From: a virus
Direction: 5' to 3' (one strand)
Length of the DNA: 39,036 nucleotides
IMG/VR virus record: IMGVR_UViG_3300044960_000328
Span: 1 to 39,036 of that record
Shown piece by piece: positions 404 through 39,036 of the stretch. Positions within the stretch are counted from its first letter, which is position 1. Every line of letters starts with the position of its first letter. Under the pieces are notes generated by a model, which did no database searches, had not been told where the DNA came from, and was given only the letters and a program-made list of their open reading frames with translations. A program made the translations under genes and the position numbers.

Positions 404-1429
404 CTATGAAGCTTTCTGCTCCAGTTTCTTCAGTTTATTGGCAGTCATCTTGGCTGTGTGTTCGCTCATCCCCGCCTTCATGAGACGTGGACGTCCTGGA
501 CGTCTCTTCTCCACCTTCATGATCTCCAGGGCTACCTCCAGTGGATCGTCTCCAGCGTTATAACTGATGGTGGAGATTTCTCCAGTCTCCAGGGTGGAGA
601 TGGAGGATTTCCCTGTACTCTTTTTTCTGGAGGTGGAGGGTGGAGATTTCTTTTCTCCATCTCCAGGGTGGAGGGTGGAGCGGTTCCCACTCTCCAGTTT
701 CTCCACCTCCACATCTCCAGACTTGGCTTCCTCCACCTTCTCCACTTTCTCCACATCCAGACTATGAGCAGGTGGAGATTCCTTCACCTCTTTCGCGCTG
801 GATACATGGAGGTCTCCTGCTTCAATCTCCAGTTTAGGTGGAGAAGATTTCTCCACCTCTCCACGTCCAGTGGATGGGGTCTCCATATCCTCCACATCCA
901 AACTGGAGGATCGGGTGGAGGATGTGGAGGTATCCAGCTTCGTGGTGGAGGTCTCTGCTGGAGATGTGGAGGTTTCTCCACCTTCCTCCACTCCACTACC
1001 GGTATGTAGGATCGCTTTCCCTGCTACCGCCTCCGCGACGATAGCGCACAGGATGATAGCCACCCCGATCACCACCCCGCCACGACCATATTCCAACCCA
1101 TATGAGATATTCGACCAAGCCACGAACGAAGCACCAAGCAGTGTAGCAATTCGTACAGGTGCACCCGGCCGAACACCGATGAAATGAAAGATCATCGTAA
1201 CGAAGGCACCGAGAAAAAACAACGCTTCAAACATGACCACTCCCATATGCGCTTCCCACCCGCTGTAACCGTACTGCTGGAACAGATGGAGCGTATGGAC
1301 GTAAGACAGCACCTGAGCGCAACCGAAGATGACCACACTGAGTAAAACCGTTACCCAGCGCGCGAATGTTTTCGTCTTTCGGTATGAGAAACCCGGGCGG
1401 GTTCTCCCCGCCCGGTGAGTCGTATCCAT
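404..1429 (-). CDS. Four-TM membrane protein with repetitive DNA-binding-like tail
   Basis: The product is about 341 residues. The start is taken as the ATG at 1429, seven bases after AAAGGAGG; an ATG at 1435 is too close to it. The first ~140 residues hold about four hydrophobic segments. Residues ~145-300 are low-complexity Ser/Thr/Glu/Lys/Val (STST, VEKVEKVEE). The C-terminus has RRPGRPRL, an AT-hook-like motif, then a basic helix. The fold resembles SpdB/DUF2637-type membrane proteins of Gram-positive mobile elements, a weak recognition. It is the last gene of the accessory operon. The low-complexity part is encoded by dense TGGAG/CTCCA repeats, described separately. The role may be tethering DNA to the membrane (inference). 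Confidence 0.75.
   Translation of the reverse strand: MDTTHRAGRTRPGFSYRKTKTFARWVTVLLSVVIFGCAQVLSYVHTLHLFQQYGYSGWEAHMGVVMFEALFFLGAFVTMIFHFIGVRPGAPVRIATLLGASFVAWSNISYGLEYGRGGVVIGVAIILCAIVAEAVAGKAILHTGSGVEEGGETSTSPAETSTTKLDTSTSSTRSSSLDVEDMETPSTGRGEVEKSSPPKLEIEAGDLHVSSAKEVKESPPAHSLDVEKVEKVEEAKSGDVEVEKLESGNRSTLHPGDGEKKSPPSTSRKKSTGKSSISTLETGEISTISYNAGDDPLEVALEIMKVEKRRPGRPRLMKAGMSEHTAKMTANKLKKLEQKAS
509..995. repeat. Field of ~40 TGGAG/CTCCA motifs
   Basis: Counting by eye gives 23 CTCCA and 17 TGGAG in under 500 bp, where about one would be expected by chance. Many extend to GGTGGAGA or TCTCCACC. Some pair as palindromes: TGGAGA-TT-TCTCCA at 571-584, and GGTGGAGA-AGATT-TCTCCACC at 837-857. The motifs lie inside the membrane-protein gene but occur in several codon phases on the coding strand (TCC-AC, TCT-CCA and CTC-CA; TG-GAG and T-GGA-GA). 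Confidence 0.9.
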
Positions 1430-1431
1430 GG

Positions 1432-1630
1432 TCATTCCTCCTTTTTCTCATACTTTTCTTCATAATCTGCCAGAAACTCATCAAAATGTTTTTCCATGCA
1501 TTCGTTCGAGCAATAATGATTCGTCCATACTTTTCCTGTTGGAAGGGCAATGGAAAAAGGAATCCACCCCTTTGGGAGGCCGTCATTCCCTTTTTTCAAA
1601 CCCTTACAACCATCGCATCCATAAGGGCAT
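1432..1630 (-). pseudogene. Small zinc-finger protein, N-terminus out of frame
   Basis: One frame encodes a GCDGCKG motif, then LPKGWIPFSIALP, then HYCSNEC and an acidic tail ending EKKEE, stopping at 1432-1434. The two Cys pairs form a treble-clef-like zinc site and the layout matches the intact gene at 36461 (CDFC, PTNW, HYCSWEC). The reading frame is blocked by TGA codons just upstream of GCDGC and has no start before it; a TTG at 1599 would lose the first Cys pair. An ATG at 1628-1630 would give an in-frame start (MPYGCDGCKG) if the CCC after it were CC. So this is a one-base indel, either real or a sequencing error. It overlaps the preceding small ORF. Confidence 0.6.
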
Positions 1631-1757
1631 CCTCATCAAAGGAAGAAATCCAAGTGGATAGACTGAACTCCATCCCCTCCCGCTTTAGTTCCTCCAACTC
1701 TTCCTGAGTAGCAACAATCCGGCTGCCGTCGACAAAAGTAACGTCGTATAAGATCAT
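1596..1757 (-). CDS. Small protein of unknown function (53 aa)
   Basis: The ORF begins ATG at 1757 after a strong AAAGGAGG and overlaps the upstream gene's stop as ATGA. It starts MILYDVTFVDGSRIVATQEE, is acidic, and is probably a short beta-hairpin followed by a helix. The last ~10 codons overlap the zinc-finger reading frame below it; if the CCC at 1625-1627 is an indel error, the true C-terminus would differ (ending near DALWMRWL). No family was recognised. Confidence 0.6.
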   Translation of the reverse strand: MILYDVTFVDGSRIVATQEELEELKREGMEFSLSTWISSFDEDALMDAMVVRV

Positions 1758-1987
1758 GAACCTACCTCCTTTCGACCATTCTGCGCGAGTTCCTCAATCT
1801 TCTTTCGTGTTCGGGGCGGCAAGCTCTGCCGATCCAGAACCCGATAGACTCCCGCATTCGTAAAGTCATGGAGTTCAGCGGGAGTATCCGCGCCGAAAAC
1901 GCGGATTTCATCTGAAGCCATCTCGACGAACAGGAACTTTCCTTCGTTCATTTCTAGCTCATCTGAGCTAGAGTAAAAACTAGCCAT
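1754..1987 (-). CDS. Small hypothetical protein (77 aa)
   Basis: Translation probably begins at the ATG at 1987 (MASFYSSSDE), six bases after AAAGGGGAG. A longer frame reaching 2077 would translate the intergenic repeat and is not credited. The product has a central strand-rich part (FLFVEMASDEIRVFGADTPAEL) and a basic helical end. It is the gene downstream of repeat copy 1 and overlaps the next gene by ATGA. Function unknown. Confidence 0.65.
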   Translation of the reverse strand: MASFYSSSDELEMNEGKFLFVEMASDEIRVFGADTPAELHDFTNAGVYRVLDRQSLPPRTRKKIEELAQNGRKEVGS

Positions 1988-2000
1988 TTTCATCTCCCCT

Positions 2001-2072
2001 TTCGCGGAACCTTTCCGGTTCCCTGTCCCACCCACCTCATGCGAGATGGGCAGGGAGGGAGTCGGAAGCCGG
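2001..2072 (-). repeat. Start-associated double-hairpin repeat, copy 1
   Basis: This sits between the stop of the gene at 2074 and the ribosome binding site of the gene at 1987. One hairpin has arms GGAACC (2006-2011) and GGTTCC (2017-2022). The other pairs CCCACCCA (2027-2034) with TGGGCAGG (2047-2054) through wobble pairs around a loop with CCTCATGCGAGA. The same layout recurs three more times in this operon. Confidence 0.8.
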
Positions 2073-2073
2073 A

Positions 2074-2622
2074 TCACTGCTTTCGCGGTTTCGCTGCTAT
2101 GTAAACAGCGATTCCCCAGAAAATCGACAGTAGAATCGCGGATGCTGGAATCAAACCGCTGAAATTTTCTGGGAATGGACCATATTCATAAACGATCCAC
2201 CCCCCAGAAAACGTCAAGGCAACCAACCCTGCAATTCCAATCATGAACTGCATGCGGATGTACAGTATATCCGCACCTGATTCTTTAGCGATCTCCGCGG
2301 CAATTTGGGAGTATATGTCGCTATACTCCTCCAACTTCTCCTCAGCTAGTCTGAAGAGGAAGGAAGCCGACAATAGGAAAAGTAGATGGACAGCAAGCAA
2401 TCCGGTATGGTACCAGAACCCGGAGGCCATGGGATGAGCGGCTACATGGACGACGAACCCTAGAATGAAGAGGGAGATAGGAACATACAAGCCAATATTC
2501 CTCCACTTCTCTCTTTTCCTCTTCAGACTAGCTTCTTTTTGAAGCCGATCTTTTTTCTCGGACTCTGTCTCCAACACGTTCGCCATAACTCGGCGAAACA
2601 TAACGTCTGCCAAACTTTTCAT
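2074..2622 (-). CDS. Four-TM membrane protein (182 aa)
   Basis: It starts MKSLADVMFRRVMANVLETE after TTTAAGGAGGGATCGGA. A charged ~45-residue cytoplasmic N-terminus is followed by two TM segments (about 46-65 and 70-92), an amphipathic acidic stretch, then two more TM segments (about 127-147 and 157-176). It lies alone between two copies of the double-hairpin repeat. No family was recognised; an accessory role at the cell membrane of the lysogen or infected cell is inference. Confidence 0.75.
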   Translation of the reverse strand: MKSLADVMFRRVMANVLETESEKKDRLQKEASLKRKREKWRNIGLYVPISLFILGFVVHVAAHPMASGFWYHTGLLAVHLLFLLSASFLFRLAEEKLEEYSDIYSQIAAEIAKESGADILYIRMQFMIGIAGLVALTFSGGWIVYEYGPFPENFSGLIPASAILLSIFWGIAVYIAAKPRKQ

Positions 2623-2629
2623 TCCGATC

Positions 2630-2702
2630 CCTCCTTAAATTTTCAGGAACCTTCTGGTTCCCTATTCCGCTCACCTCATGCGAGATGAGCGGGTAAGAAG
2701 TC
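2630..2702 (-). repeat. Start-associated double-hairpin repeat, copy 2
   Basis: Hairpin arms are GGAACC (2646-2651)/GGTTCC (2656-2661) and CCGCTCA (2667-2673)/TGAGCGG (2686-2692). The loop of the second is CCTCATGCGAGA. It precedes the ribosome binding site of the gene starting at 2622. Confidence 0.85.
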
Positions 2703-2721
2703 AGACCAATTCCTCCGACCA

Positions 2722-3111
2722 TCAAATCGAATGGTACTCCCGGCATTGCGGACATCCCTCTAACTTTCTCACCTCCCCTCTAGGCTCGGGGGAGTAATGC
2801 TTCCCTCGCTCACAGTAGTAAATCCTCTTTTCGGTGCCGAAATGTGGGCCGCTAGTTCGCTTACCAATAATACAAACAAGTCGTCCTCCGCAATCAGGGC
2901 AGACCTCTTTCACTGGCTCTGGTGCGGACCCGTTAAGTATCCACACCTTATCTGTAATTACAGGCCGACCGCATTTTATTTCGCGGTATTCCTGGCCCTC
3001 GATATAGCCGGGAACCACATAGCACTCATCGTCGTAATCGTAAGCGATGCGCGGTGTCCCGCAATGCGAACACGGGCGGGTCGGCTCTACTCCGAAATAT
3101 TTGCCTTTCAT
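2722..3111 (-). CDS. Multi-zinc-ribbon protein (129 aa)
   Basis: It begins MKGKYFGVEPTRPCSHCGTP with GGGAG 11 bases upstream. Four Cys-rich sites are visible: CSHC near residue 14, a lone Cys before a conserved GRPVIT, CPDC near 71, a CERG near 100 and CPQC near 119. These would fold as two or three zinc ribbons, suggesting nucleic-acid or protein binding. It is bounded on both sides by the double-hairpin repeats. No named family was recognised. Confidence 0.7.
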   Translation of the reverse strand: MKGKYFGVEPTRPCSHCGTPRIAYDYDDECYVVPGYIEGQEYREIKCGRPVITDKVWILNGSAPEPVKEVCPDCGGRLVCIIGKRTSGPHFGTEKRIYYCERGKHYSPEPRGEVRKLEGCPQCREYHSI

Positions 3112-3124
3112 AATTGAATCATCT

Positions 3125-3195
3125 CCCTTTTTTTGTTTGGAGCTTCTGGCTCCTTATCCCGCCCACCTCCTGCGAGATGAGCGGGTAAGAAGTCG
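3125..3195 (-). repeat. Start-associated double-hairpin repeat, copy 3
   Basis: Arms are GGAGC (3139-3143)/GCTCC (3149-3153) and CCGCCCA (3159-3165)/TGAGCGG (3178-3184). The second pair needs one G-U wobble in the minus-strand RNA. The first stem differs from copies 1-2 by compensating changes on both arms (AA/TT to AG/CT). Confidence 0.85.
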
Positions 3196-3197
3196 GA

Positions 3198-3527
3198 TCA
3201 GCGGACGAACCGTCGGACGGCTTCGATCCGTCCATCTTCTCCCCGGATCGCACCTTGCGGGGAGGTGTCGGGAGACAGGAGATCATCCCGTTTCCCCTCC
3301 GCTGCCTGACGCACAACCATCGATACGATGTAGTATGTGTCCGGCTGCGGTTCCGGCAGACCCTCGATCTCACCGAAGGTCTGGGCGACAACTTCGCACC
3401 CGTCGATTTCCCCTACTACTTCGTTCACCGTGGCAACGCGGGCTGTTTGCCCGGTTGCGGGGTATTTTTTCTCTCCGGATTCGTTCCGGACAATCACGTC
3501 ATGAGGCGTCAAATTTACGATTTTCAT
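3198..3527 (-). CDS. Conserved phage/bacterial hypothetical protein (109 aa)
   Basis: It starts MKIVNLTPHDVIVRNESGEK. The pattern NLTPH...YPATGQTARV...TFGEIEGLPEP...YYIVS...RDDLLSPDTSPQGAIRGEDG matches a widespread small family in phages and bacteria that I recognise but whose function is not known to me. The start follows AAAGGGAGAG. It is a single-gene unit flanked by the hairpin repeats. Confidence 0.75.
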   Translation of the reverse strand: MKIVNLTPHDVIVRNESGEKKYPATGQTARVATVNEVVGEIDGCEVVAQTFGEIEGLPEPQPDTYYIVSMVVRQAAEGKRDDLLSPDTSPQGAIRGEDGRIEAVRRFVR

Positions 3528-3534
3528 TTTTCAT

Positions 3535-3606
3535 CTCTCCCTTTTTTTGTCGGAGCCTGTCCGGCTCCCTGTCCCGCTCACCCGGTGGATGAGCGGAGAG
3601 GAAGTC
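3535..3606 (-). repeat. Start-associated double-hairpin repeat, copy 4
   Basis: Arms are GGAGCC (3552-3557)/GGCTCC (3563-3568) and CCGCTCA (3574-3580)/TGAGCGG (3590-3596). Here the loop of the second hairpin is CCCGGTGGA, unlike the other three copies, while the stem is kept. Confidence 0.85.
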
Positions 3607-3608
3607 GG

Positions 3609-3833
3609 CTAGGTGATAATCTTCGATGCAACTAACACCCAGCGGGATATAAATTCCTCTTCATCCTCTATCTCGTAGAGGTGGTAGAAGCGGTAGCCTT
3701 CTTCTTTCGCTTCGTACACCCTTTCTTCTGACGGTTCATCCCCTTCTACGTCTTCCAGTGAATCATAATTCGGGTCATATTCTGTGATCTTTTGCGGAGC
3801 TGTGCTTTCTCCTGCAAACAAAACTTTCATCAT
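3609..3833 (-). CDS. Acidic small protein (74 aa)
   Basis: The start is ATG ATG at 3833/3830 after GAGGAAG, overlapping the upstream gene's stop. The product begins MMKVLFAGESTAPQKITEYD and is strongly acidic (Asp/Glu-rich middle). A final SRWVLVASK strand suggests a small globular fold. Acidic small phage proteins can mimic DNA, but nothing here shows that. Function unknown. Confidence 0.6.
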   Translation of the reverse strand: MMKVLFAGESTAPQKITEYDPNYDSLEDVEGDEPSEERVYEAKEEGYRFYHLYEIEDEEEFISRWVLVASKIIT

Positions 3834-4773: not shown

Positions 4774-4829
4774 GTGAACTTTGTTCACTTCCTGATTCTA
4801 TAGTACACCCACCCGTGAACAAAGTCAAC
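4774..4829 (-). promoter_or_regulatory. Accessory-operon promoter with two operators
   Basis: On the minus strand, TTGACT (4823-4828) and TACTAT (4800-4805) are separated by exactly 17 bp. GTGAACTTTGTTCAC (4774-4788) is a perfect palindrome near the transcription start. GTGAACAAAGTCAAC (4815-4829) is an imperfect copy overlapping the -35. A dimeric repressor is implied. The half-site spacing (GAAC-N3-GTTC) is one base short of the Bacillus LexA box, so this is probably a phage repressor site. Confidence 0.85.
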
Positions 4830-5018: not shown

Positions 5019-5050
5019 AAAAAAAGCCGGACAGATTTCCCTATCCGGCT
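5019..5050 (-). terminator. Late-operon terminator
   Basis: On the minus strand AGCCGGA (5044-5050) pairs with TCCGGCT (5025-5031), followed by seven T. It lies downstream of the endolysin gene and closes the late transcript, insulating it from the opposing small RNA. Confidence 0.85.
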
Positions 5051-8699: not shown

Positions 8700-11045
8700 C
8701 TAATCGGATTCATTCTCCCCGCCGCCAAGCACAGGGAATGTCTTCGTCATCGCTGTCGCTCCCGATCCTTCTTTTTTCGATGCATTGTATACCTCGATCC
8801 GTTGCCCTGTGCCGGATGGGAAGAAGGAGACTCGAAGCCGGTAGGAATCGATGGTCACGGTCCCGCCGCTCCGTTTCGCTCGCAATCGAACTACCGCCTG
8901 CCCGGTTCTCCCGCTGACCCCCACATTGGTTACATCGGCGAAAATTTGGTTGGTCAGCGGAATGGTATGAGTCCCTGCCGGATACGCTCGCAACACTTCC
9001 GCCTGTGGGTTGTCCCGCGTCCCCTCCCACGAAAAAGTAGGAGAATTGAGTTGATACAGTTGCGGGATGAAAGCAATTTCGGCTTGCTGTGAGCAGGTAA
9101 AAGTGAGGTAGCCATCACAGGTGAGAATCCCCGGTGCTTTCAAATCGAACCGGTGTTCCATTTGGGTGATGGTACTGTATTTTTGCGACGAAACCGGAAT
9201 CGTCGGTGGCGATACCTCATACAGGAATTGATACCGCGCCGCCAAATCAGCCAGTGTAATGCGCCCATCTTGGAAATCGTTATATTCCTTTTCAGTGATT
9301 TGGACGAGCATATTCCCGTCCACGTATACCGTCCCCGTCCAAGCGACCGTTCGCCCATAAACCAACCGAGCTCCTCCACTCCTTCCTTCGAAAACACCAC
9401 CAGCGCGTACCCAATCCGGGTCGACAGTCGTCTGATTTTCTGTTACGAGCGACAGGTTGTTAAACCCCCCAATATCGTAGAGGTTCATACCGAAATGGCC
9501 ATCTTGCATGTCCGTTACCCGACGATAGAGTAGCCATAACCAGTATGTGCCCGTAGTTAATTCCGGATAGTCGCCGCGAGCGTTCACAATTTGGTTCGCC
9601 GCCACCATTTTCATCGAAGTGGAACCAAACACGGCATAATCATTGCTGAAAGTTCGGGTGGACGAAGTGGCGTGGTTCACTAGGTTGACCGGAACCTGTT
9701 CTCCCGGTGTGCCCTCATAGTTCCCGTCTGCACCGAAAAGACTGCCCCGGGATCGATCATAGATGAACCACTTGGCATATGGATTTTTCAGCACTTCTAC
9801 CTTGCCCCGCGCTGGAATGCGCGCTGCCTGCAGAGTCAGGTTCCCGAACCAATTGGCTGCTCTGGTCATTTCCGCGCTGTCACGGGTTGCCCCAGCGATG
9901 CCGTTCACGAACTCCGGTAGCGCGCTGTTCATCCCGTATTGGTTCGCGGCATGGTTGGTGGCGCTGGGGAGTGTGCTCGTTCCCCATACGATCCGCTCCC
10001 CGTTTTGATACAGGTGCTGAATCACACCTGCATACCGCGAAATGTCCTGTTCGATGAATCGCGGCATGAACAGGACATACTCGGCTGTCACGCTCGAGAT
10101 GGTATGGAAGTCCAGATATGCTACCGCGTCCGAGAACTCACTATACAGAGTATCCAGCGCCTGCGCTTCCGCCTCGGAGAGTGGAGCCGGCCCTTTGTAG
10201 TTGGATTGCCCCGGTTGGTTCTGGGAAAAGTTGTCCCAGTTGTAAGGGAAGTTTCGATTCAGGTCGACTTGGTTTGAATTTTGTCGCGTCTGGTTTGCGT
10301 GCCCCCACGGATTCGCGATAGGCACAGCAATAATTCGAACATTCTTCCGCAAGTAGGAGAGGTGTGGCCATTCCTTCCACCGCCTCACCAACAGGTCTAG
10401 AAACTGATACAGCGCATAGAACCCGGTGTATTCGTTTCCGTGCAAGCAAGCGGTCAGGATGATCGTCTTTTCATAGTTCTGAGGCACAAAATCGTACCGC
10501 CAGATTTCATAGGTGTCCGACGCATCCCGACCAATCGATTGTTTCGATACGTAGTCAGGCGCAACCGTCAACAGCGGATCGATGAGCGCTTGCAACTGCT
10601 CATCAGGATCATAACCCGCCGGGACGGTTCCGTTCCCTCGAATCGTATCCGGAAGGGTAGGAGGTTTCCAAAAAGCGTTGAAGTAGCCGTTCCCGGCTTC
10701 CACCTCCTGCTGAAGGTTGACGATGCTCGTTTTCGTCATCTCCAGCATGCCGTCCGAATCATCCAGCCGCGCCTTCAGCGTAGGAAACGCGAACCCGTCG
10801 GCATTTACTCGCGCCTGCGCTGCTTCTACGGACGAATCCCCTTCTACCACGATGGTGTCAAGCTGGGTTTGCACGCTATCCGCCCGTGTCACCGCCTGCT
10901 GCGCCGTCTGCTTCGCTTCATCTGCTTTTGTCTCTGCCGTCTGGGCGATGGCTTTCGCCTCTGCTGCCTGCCTCTCGGTGTCTGCGATGTCCTGTAATGC
11001 CGCTTTCACGTCACGCCCAATCACATTGTTCCAATTAGTTGACAT
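8700..11045 (-). CDS. Tail fibre with M14 zinc carboxypeptidase domain
   Basis: The 781-aa protein has an N-terminal coiled coil (about 13-115, Ala/Glu/Gln-rich), an M14-like peptidase (about 155-410) and beta-rich C-terminal modules (about 415-781). The peptidase signature is complete: HGNE (H202, E205), LNRN (N263, R264), DFH (H314) and PEF with E378 as the likely catalytic Glu. M14 enzymes remove C-terminal residues or cut gamma-D-Glu peptides; here the target may be peptidoglycan stem peptides or a surface polymer (inference). It lies between Dit and Tal, so it should be on the virion. RBS AGGAGGGTC precedes the start. Confidence 0.9.
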   Translation of the reverse strand: MSTNWNNVIGRDVKAALQDIADTERQAAEAKAIAQTAETKADEAKQTAQQAVTRADSVQTQLDTIVVEGDSSVEAAQARVNADGFAFPTLKARLDDSDGMLEMTKTSIVNLQQEVEAGNGYFNAFWKPPTLPDTIRGNGTVPAGYDPDEQLQALIDPLLTVAPDYVSKQSIGRDASDTYEIWRYDFVPQNYEKTIILTACLHGNEYTGFYALYQFLDLLVRRWKEWPHLSYLRKNVRIIAVPIANPWGHANQTRQNSNQVDLNRNFPYNWDNFSQNQPGQSNYKGPAPLSEAEAQALDTLYSEFSDAVAYLDFHTISSVTAEYVLFMPRFIEQDISRYAGVIQHLYQNGERIVWGTSTLPSATNHAANQYGMNSALPEFVNGIAGATRDSAEMTRAANWFGNLTLQAARIPARGKVEVLKNPYAKWFIYDRSRGSLFGADGNYEGTPGEQVPVNLVNHATSSTRTFSNDYAVFGSTSMKMVAANQIVNARGDYPELTTGTYWLWLLYRRVTDMQDGHFGMNLYDIGGFNNLSLVTENQTTVDPDWVRAGGVFEGRSGGARLVYGRTVAWTGTVYVDGNMLVQITEKEYNDFQDGRITLADLAARYQFLYEVSPPTIPVSSQKYSTITQMEHRFDLKAPGILTCDGYLTFTCSQQAEIAFIPQLYQLNSPTFSWEGTRDNPQAEVLRAYPAGTHTIPLTNQIFADVTNVGVSGRTGQAVVRLRAKRSGGTVTIDSYRLRVSFFPSGTGQRIEVYNASKKEGSGATAMTKTFPVLGGGENESD

Positions 11046-38748: not shown

Positions 38749-39036
38749 ATGAAAAAAGTACTCATTGGATGTGGCGCTGTCTTTGGACTTTTCCTATTGC
38801 TGGGCGCATGCGTTGCTATCGTGGGTGGTCTGAGCGACGACACCACTACCGCAGATCAGCCGGAGGAAAACGCGGAGAAGGAACCGGAGGAAAAGGAAGA
38901 GTCGAAGAAGGGAAAAAACGACAAGCTACCCGAAATCCCGGATGAGGCAAAGAAAATAGCCGTAGACCAAATAAAAATGGAGACACTCGTGGAAGATGCT
39001 CTAGTCCAAGTTGAGGGAGATAAAGTTATCTTGGCT
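38749..39036 (+). CDS. Lipoprotein, N-terminal part (continues at 1-367)
   Basis: It begins MKKVLIGCGAVFGLFLLLGA then C at the lipobox after AGGAGGGATATC. The signal peptide is about 20 residues with lipidation at Cys21; the mature part starts with a Thr/Glu/Lys-rich linker (EEKEESKKGKND). The frame continues exactly into base 2 of the window, giving about 175 residues in total. Location beside the integrase and outside the lytic operons suggests expression from the prophage. A role in superinfection exclusion, as for Ltp of phage TP-J34, is a guess from context. Confidence 0.88.
   Translation, partial: MKKVLIGCGAVFGLFLLLGACVAIVGGLSDDTTTADQPEENAEKEPEEKEESKKGKNDKLPEIPDEAKKIAVDQIKMETLVEDALVQVEGDKVILA

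Follow-up and report, generated by a model that had tools for sequence, protein, structure and literature searches.

Attenuators of the ermC type rely on mutually exclusive pairings, and a ribosome on the upstream frame frees the downstream Shine-Dalgarno sequence (SD). Translational coupling by RNA unfolding is an established model: at rpmI-rplT, phage f1 VII-IX and MS2 coat-lysis, a structure that includes ribosome-covered sequence hides the SD, and junctions tens of nucleotides long are known, that of rpmI-rplT being +52 nt (PMC12548453). The start-associated sequences (SAS) and extended SAS (ESAS) of cluster K mycobacteriophages are, like the locus described here, repeats at the starts of some non-structural, mostly unrelated phage genes (PMC3203893, PMC12699233). 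The SAS stands immediately before the start, 3-7 nt upstream (PMC3203893, PMC12699233); an inverted repeat lies upstream, again as at our locus, and the inverted repeats of ESAS show no covariation as RNA (PMC3203893). Coupled junctions and start-associated repeats are known already, and the element reported below adds a variant of both.

The element was found in an uncultivated virus record (IMG/VR IMGVR_UViG_3300044960_000328), whose positions 1 to 39,036 were analysed as a whole and are referred to as the window. Because an identical 127-bp direct repeat occupies both ends (1-127 and 38910-39036), the record probably represents a whole genome of ~38.9 kb, either circular or terminally redundant; across the join of the ends runs a 175-aa lipoprotein-like ORF. 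The encoded proteins, including a serine recombinase, a terminase and a portal, suggest a tailed phage with a Gram-positive host; an accessory protein is similar to sequences of Geobacillus phages. The lysis genes are followed by an array of accessory genes on the minus strand, which is preceded by a terminator-like hairpin and a promoter-like site. The hairpin, of the intrinsic-terminator type with TTTTTT (5025-5050, minus strand), separates the endolysin gene from the array. A candidate promoter and operator, recognised by consensus matches only, follows at 4774-4829 (minus strand): the promoter-like TTGACT-17-TACTAT at 4828-4800 heads the array and is flanked by the palindrome GTGAACAAAGTTCAC at 4774-4788 and a partial copy at 4815-4829. 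Sites similar to GTGAACAAAGTTCAC do not occur elsewhere above chance. Two perfect inverted repeats were also noted, one of 18 nt (2344-2361/2516-2533, arms 154 nt apart) within the coding sequence of a 182-aa protein and one of 15 nt (4667-4681/4736-4750), and the 343-aa ORF at 404-1435 (minus strand) contains a long region of TCCACC/GGTGGA-type DNA repeats in several orientations.

Within the array, an element of ~75 nt is present in four minus-strand copies, c1 (1985-2063), c2 (2620-2702), c3 (3109-3194) and c4 (3525-3606), directly followed by ORF starts at 1987, 2622, 3111 and 3527, respectively. Each copy spans the gap between the stop codon of one gene and the ribosome site of the next, and its parts come in a constant order: upstream stop, a strand that we call strand 1 (GACUUCYU), hairpin P2, hairpin P3, an A-rich linker, an SD of the GGGAG/AGGAG type and the start codon. 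P2 is of the CCGCTCATCTC-GCAT-GAGGTGAGCGG type and is separated by 4-5 nt from P3, which reads GGARCC-loop-GGYTCC. The sequence-only reading had already recognised the first stem but gave it too short a length, since P2 has 11-12 bp; it was right that the loop differs in the fourth copy, where ACC replaces GCAT or GCAG.

Listed in the direction of transcription, junction 4 (c4, 3525-3611, minus strand) begins with the TAG at 3611-3609 of a gene (3609-3833, minus strand) that overlaps its own predecessor and is without an element. Strand 1 CCGACTTCCT, P2 (3596-3574), P3 (GGAGCC/GGCTCC, 3568-3552), the linker GACAAAAAAA and the SD GGGAG (3541-3537) lead to the ATG at 3527-3525 of a 109-aa protein gene (3198-3527, minus strand) assigned to PHROG 30542, which has no function attached. 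Junction 3 (c3, 3109-3200, minus strand) runs from the TGA at 3200-3198 through strand 1 GACTTCTTA, P2 (about 3185-3158), P3 (GGAGC/GCTCC, 3153-3139), the linker AAACAAAAAAA and the SD GGGAG (3127-3123) to the ATG at 3111-3109, where a cysteine-rich protein of 129 aa begins (2722-3111, minus strand); this protein distantly matches, at about 32% identity, stretches of Geobacillus virus E2 and phage D6E. At junction 2 (c2, 2620-2703, minus strand), strand 1 is again GACTTCTTA, followed by P2 (2692-2667), P3 (GGAACC/GGTTCC, 2661-2646), the linker TGAAAATTTA, the SD AGGAGG and the ATG at 2622-2620 of a 182-aa protein gene (2074-2622, minus strand), whose product belongs to no family and, judged by inspection of its hydrophobic stretches, would be a membrane protein. 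The upstream ORF (2722-3111) first stops in frame at the TGA at 2724-2722, 7 codons before a second in-frame TGA (2703-2701) that exactly adjoins c2, which suggests that the first is a recent premature stop. Junction 1 (c1, 1985-2076, minus strand) comprises the TGA at 2076-2074, a spacer, strand 1 GACTCCCT (2063-2056), P2 (2053-2028), P3 (GGAACC/GGTTCC, 2022-2006), the SD GGGGAG (1999-1994) and the ATG at 1987-1985 of a gene for a 77-aa protein of no family (1754-1987, minus strand). The four proteins encoded after c1-c4 are mutually unrelated.

That four repeats precede successive start codons, as the sequence-only reading had proposed, was recovered by several routes. A direct-repeat search returned c1-c4 as families D1, D2 and D4; in a blastn comparison of 96 putative leader regions of the genome only c1-c4 paired with one another (E 3.5e-17 to 2e-7); and a consensus pattern matched exactly four times in the window and 0 times in 100 shuffles. 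The proposal that an RNA structure is conserved was likewise upheld. The fold energy of every copy lies below those of dinucleotide shuffles (z -3.9 to -6.0), and in an alignment of the four copies, in which N padding in the loops and the linker keeps the arms in register, 98.9% of the cells in 23 pairs are standard pairs. Sliding the partners lowers this value to 44-60%, a control that is not decisive by itself given that the structure was derived from the same four copies. P1 (the helix that strand 1 forms with the SD), P2 and P3 each contain at least one double-sided change, P1 in one pair only; the copies are related by descent and therefore do not amount to four independent tests, which limits the covariation that they can offer. 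The changes reported earlier are compensatory, as claimed, but had been assigned to the wrong stems: the A-U to G-C change (GGAACC/GGTTCC to GGAGCC/GGCTCC) falls in the second hairpin, P3, and the G-U pairs are mostly in the first. Both stems of the earlier description exist, and a third helix, involving the ribosome site, had been missed. Judged from these alignments and folds, the element is a covarying RNA junction module.

The third helix arises because strand 1 can base-pair with the SD, and this pairing closes a three-way junction that carries P2 and P3. Strand 1 has an alternative partner, the SD-like 5' arm of P3 (ARGGARCC), and when it is placed there the 3' arm of P3 (GGYUCC), an anti-SD sequence, is left free for the SD. 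Isolated elements are predicted to form P1 in c1, c2 and c4 and the strand 1-P3 pairing in c3, which also forms the three-way junction when it is folded from its own stop codon; with flanking sequence included both alternatives appear, and c3 and c4 then place strand 1 against the 5' arm of P3. In the free copies c1-c4 the predicted unpaired value of the SD is 0.15-0.32. When a mask of 12-14 nt is laid from the stop onwards, the value climbs to 0.82 for c3 and 0.92 for c4; c2 attains 0.93, only if the count begins at the second in-frame stop, and c1 releases its SD only when 20-22 nt from the stop are masked. The pattern of hiding and release is similar at 60 C. When strand 1 is exchanged for random stretches of the same genome, mean SD accessibility is 0.50-0.72, and the native elements rank in the lowest 3-12%. 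Shuffling strand 1 within itself leaves the SD hidden in c1, c3 and c4, so that pyrimidine-rich composition alone does much of the hiding. Two further structural ideas were set aside. Perfect kissing between the P3 loop and strand 1 (AGAAG/CUUCU) is confined to c2 and c3, and the interaction merges into the strand 1-P3 alternative; an RNA thermometer is not favoured because between 37 and 65 C the SD opens gradually and only in part.

We favour a reading not among the roles offered by the sequence-only reading, that the window elements bring about translational coupling by RNA unfolding, to which we would assign a probability of roughly 45%. On this model a cis-acting RNA module would occupy each gene junction of a co-transcribed accessory array. 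In the absence of upstream translation, strand 1 would pair with the SD or with the 5' arm of P3 and the downstream start would be shut; a ribosome terminating at the upstream stop would cover strand 1, P2 and P3 would form alone and the SD would be exposed. Each gene would then be translated mainly while the preceding gene is translated, and the module would be retained because it hands each inserted gene its own ready-made coupled start. The order of the parts, the covariation of the hairpins, the predicted pairing of the SD and its predicted release in three copies (in c2 by way of the second stop) are direct results of the analysis; from them we infer co-transcription, the fold in vivo, termination as the trigger and the reason for retention. 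In favour of coupling, the sequence from stop to SD is kept in four copies despite unrelated neighbouring genes, the junctions have neither terminators nor promoters, and an unrelated viral group described below sets the same layout between stop and start. Against it, the mask of 20-22 nt that c1 needs exceeds the cover of a terminating ribosome, and c2 releases its SD only from the second stop; the hiding of the SD by shuffled strand 1 and the open SD of many elements in that viral group also count against it.

Compared with the known coupled junctions, the window adds a double hairpin together with a distinct anti-SD strand that directly follows the stop, and where the described examples of RNA unfolding are single gene-specific structures, here a conserved module is repeated at four unrelated gene junctions. 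With ermC-type translational attenuators the window shares alternative pairings that an upstream ribosome frees; it differs from them in having neither drug-induced stalling nor a leader peptide, the trigger here being, on the coupling model, the ordinary termination of a full gene.

Searches for the window's own sequence family yielded no second genome. Rfam covariance models gave no match in the window at the gathering threshold or at E<=1. Exact and near-consensus blastn searches of phage records returned nothing relevant apart from one chance 23-nt match, plasmid records searched by blastn contained no match to the element, and near-consensus motif scans of viral contigs found no element. 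A near-consensus scan of 84,980 genomes, one per species, produced four matches in unrelated organisms with unconvincing model scores. The pattern GGTGRGYGGRAYARGGARCC recurs in seven contigs, where it belongs to one common coding sequence and not to the element. The sequence-only reading had suggested a covariance search of other Bacilli phages, and a model of the element gave no significant match in terminase relatives (most of them 50-80% identical) or in the thermophile phages E2, GBSV1, D6E, phiOH2, NIIg3.2 and A403; weak matches in G012, G026 and L082 were judged to be chance. Searching the literature for this repeat in phages yielded nothing apart from SAS/ESAS.

One contig (L004, of G003) carries a single element-like double-hairpin copy after a stop codon, at about 95-160, in which masking does not release the SD. 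The same contig has near-identical 14-bp hairpins directly before the SDs of two genes (about 9945-9985 and 10450-10490), and one of these genes is a relative of the 109-aa window protein. Other repeats at gene starts were seen as well. In L086 (G008), a repeated GGAACGGAGGTTCCGAAGATTCGnGGTTGAC, a hairpin followed by a -35-like TTGAC, precedes three starts and is perhaps a phage promoter or operator family. In L115 (G022), two copies of CCGAAACACCGGTTCATCCGGTGTCCTAAAGGAGG lie directly after or near stop codons before two starts; the layout may have a simpler relative in this single-hairpin junction.

A relaxed motif (GCTCATC...GGTGRGC, then GGARC) detected 28 viral stretches, about a dozen of them chance-like and 16 in one group of AT-rich contigs that has no close isolate and is unrelated to the window phage. 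These contigs contain 58 unique elements of the same layout in three sequence classes; after 56 of the elements come an SD and an ORF of 20 codons or more, and 32 gene families lie downstream. The likeness in class I P2 and in GGARC is built into the search, whereas the placement, second hairpin, linker and repetition are not. The window model's best score in the group, 19.1 bits (E 0.0044 in 374 kb), falls on a class II copy in L152 that had not been selected by the motif. Rfam gave no match for the AT-rich contigs at the gathering threshold. The window and AT-rich elements may be homologous or convergent.

Class I elements stand first in the AT-rich arrays. In class II the upstream stop ends -4 to +3 nt from strand 1 in 38 of 40 elements, and as strand 1 there begins with TAA it can itself supply the stop; in class III, a stop ends within the same range in 4 of 5. 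The fold conservation seen in the window is reinforced by this group. All 8 pairs of class II P2 are 100% paired and 5 show double-sided changes, with 33 double-changed cells against 9.9 in shuffles, a value that 0 of 500 shuffles reach. P3 varies in concert too, from GGAAC/GTTCC to GGAAG/CTTCC in one class I copy and in a GTAAC/GTTAC variant, and three class II copies (L165:14487, L173:1773 and L162:5989, the latter two by minus-strand index) keep their arms paired around P2-loop inserts of tens of nucleotides. Homologous genes stand behind different classes: proteins with 47 of 52 identities follow class I in L166 and class II in L161, and proteins with 35 of 63 identities follow class II in L161 and class III in L175. 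Modules and genes therefore recombine, and the modular gene shuffling once offered as a possible role is seen here as an exchange of hairpin modules between genes. In every group strand 1, beginning at the stop or close to it, lengthens P2 in register and reaches into P3, which sets strand 1 and the P3 3' arm in competition; the single p-values are modest (0.01-0.35) and the outer pairs do not covary, and the pattern across groups is suggestive. Since the SD is predicted to be open without masking in classes II and III (0.82 and 0.94), hiding the SD cannot be the purpose that every element of this kind serves, and the function common to the window and the AT-rich elements may be a different one, such as processing or insulation.

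Intercistronic RNase III sites are known from phage T7 early mRNA and from Bacillus phage SP82, and these, like the window elements, place hairpins in the gap between phage genes, a short way before an A-rich SD. The main rival to coupling is a processing or stabilising site, in which strand 1, P2 and the first part of P3 would make an RNase III-type target helix; cutting this imperfect helix of ~19-21 bp would leave P3 as a 5' hairpin before an A-rich, open SD on a stable and well-translated mRNA. Such processing with 5' stabilisation may be the function that the groups have in common: strand 1 extends P2 in each of the three AT-rich classes as well as in the window and G003 copies, the extended helices would come near two turns, and an A-rich SD region is common to the groups and stays open in classes II and III. 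We nevertheless consider it rather unlikely, since in the window the extended helix competes with P3 and P1 and is the best fold in only some copies, none of its nine outer pairs covaries in class II and, taken element by element, the p-values for the extension are weak. The window moreover adds a conserved anti-SD strand and a second overlapping hairpin to what the T7 and SP82 sites possess, and cleavage here is hypothetical. That the junction is essentially a recombination linker, a sequence through which accessory genes are gained, lost and swapped while the hairpins are secondary or insulate the starts, would account for near-identical elements before unrelated genes, for the different element classes of homologous AT-rich genes and for the sharing of elements by 32 gene families. 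Recombination alone leaves the compensatory changes of class II P2 (5 of 8 pairs, 100% paired) unexplained, which makes a linker improbable as the whole account; the role is compatible with either coupling or processing.

Inverted repeats at gene starts in non-structural regions would also be expected of DNA sites for a protein, repressor or promoter half-sites of the kind proposed for cluster K ESAS, but the arms covary instead of holding a fixed motif, the loops accept inserts of tens of nucleotides and promoter-like sites are absent at the elements, so that we regard this reading as very improbable. Farther still from probable is a cis-acting antiterminator RNA. The put RNA of HK022 has two adjacent stem-loops and a total length similar to that of the window element; there is, however, one window copy per gene, at the translation start and not at the operon head, and the elements have no terminators to overcome. 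Transcription attenuation, raised in the sequence-only reading, is not supported in the form of an intrinsic terminator, as no U-run follows either hairpin and no terminator was found at any element on either strand. The scan for terminators and promoters gave none at the four junctions and a single promoter-like site at the array head.

The earlier comparison with start-associated sequences holds for position and fails for consensus, spacing and RNA covariation. The 13-nt SAS consensus GGGATAGGAGCCC has 8 matches in the window at <=3 mismatches against 11.3 expected, none of them in the elements, and the stretch most similar to it, GGGAYARGGARCC, falls inside P2/P3, about 40 nt before the start. 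Unlike the SAS/ESAS repeats, P2 and P3 show covariation, and some 20-30 nt separate their end from the start. Membership in SAS/ESAS is ruled out by the missing consensus enrichment and the wrong distance from the start. Integron attC sites are hairpins with variable loops that lie directly after stop codons in arrays of unrelated genes, with core sites RYYYAAC and GTTRRRY. Variable-loop hairpins directly after stops are a shared feature, and the class II left end ATCTAAC fits RYYYAAC, but the right end is GATAGAT or CATAGGT and not GTTRRRY, and the other AT-rich classes and the window copies have neither core end. An integron attC is excluded by the missing GTT core site.

Because an unrelated uncultured phage group uses the same layout before dozens of genes, the layout looks like a recurrent, largely undescribed wiring of accessory genes. 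It is possible, though on balance doubtful, that double-hairpin junctions running from stop to start make up a general class of RNA module in phages, one that arose or spread in several unrelated lineages; a strand that begins at the stop would then compete for P3, termination would set the folding, processing or translation of the next gene, and arrays would be built by swapping genes and junctions. Phage arrays of small accessory genes change rapidly, and the question addressed is how a newly acquired gene gains proper expression. A repeated RNA junction that fills the gap between stop and start and folds by a logic of its own would, as a genetic part that can be used again, explain this, and the element gives the start-associated sequences of mycobacteriophages, themselves unexplained, a structural counterpart that can be tested.
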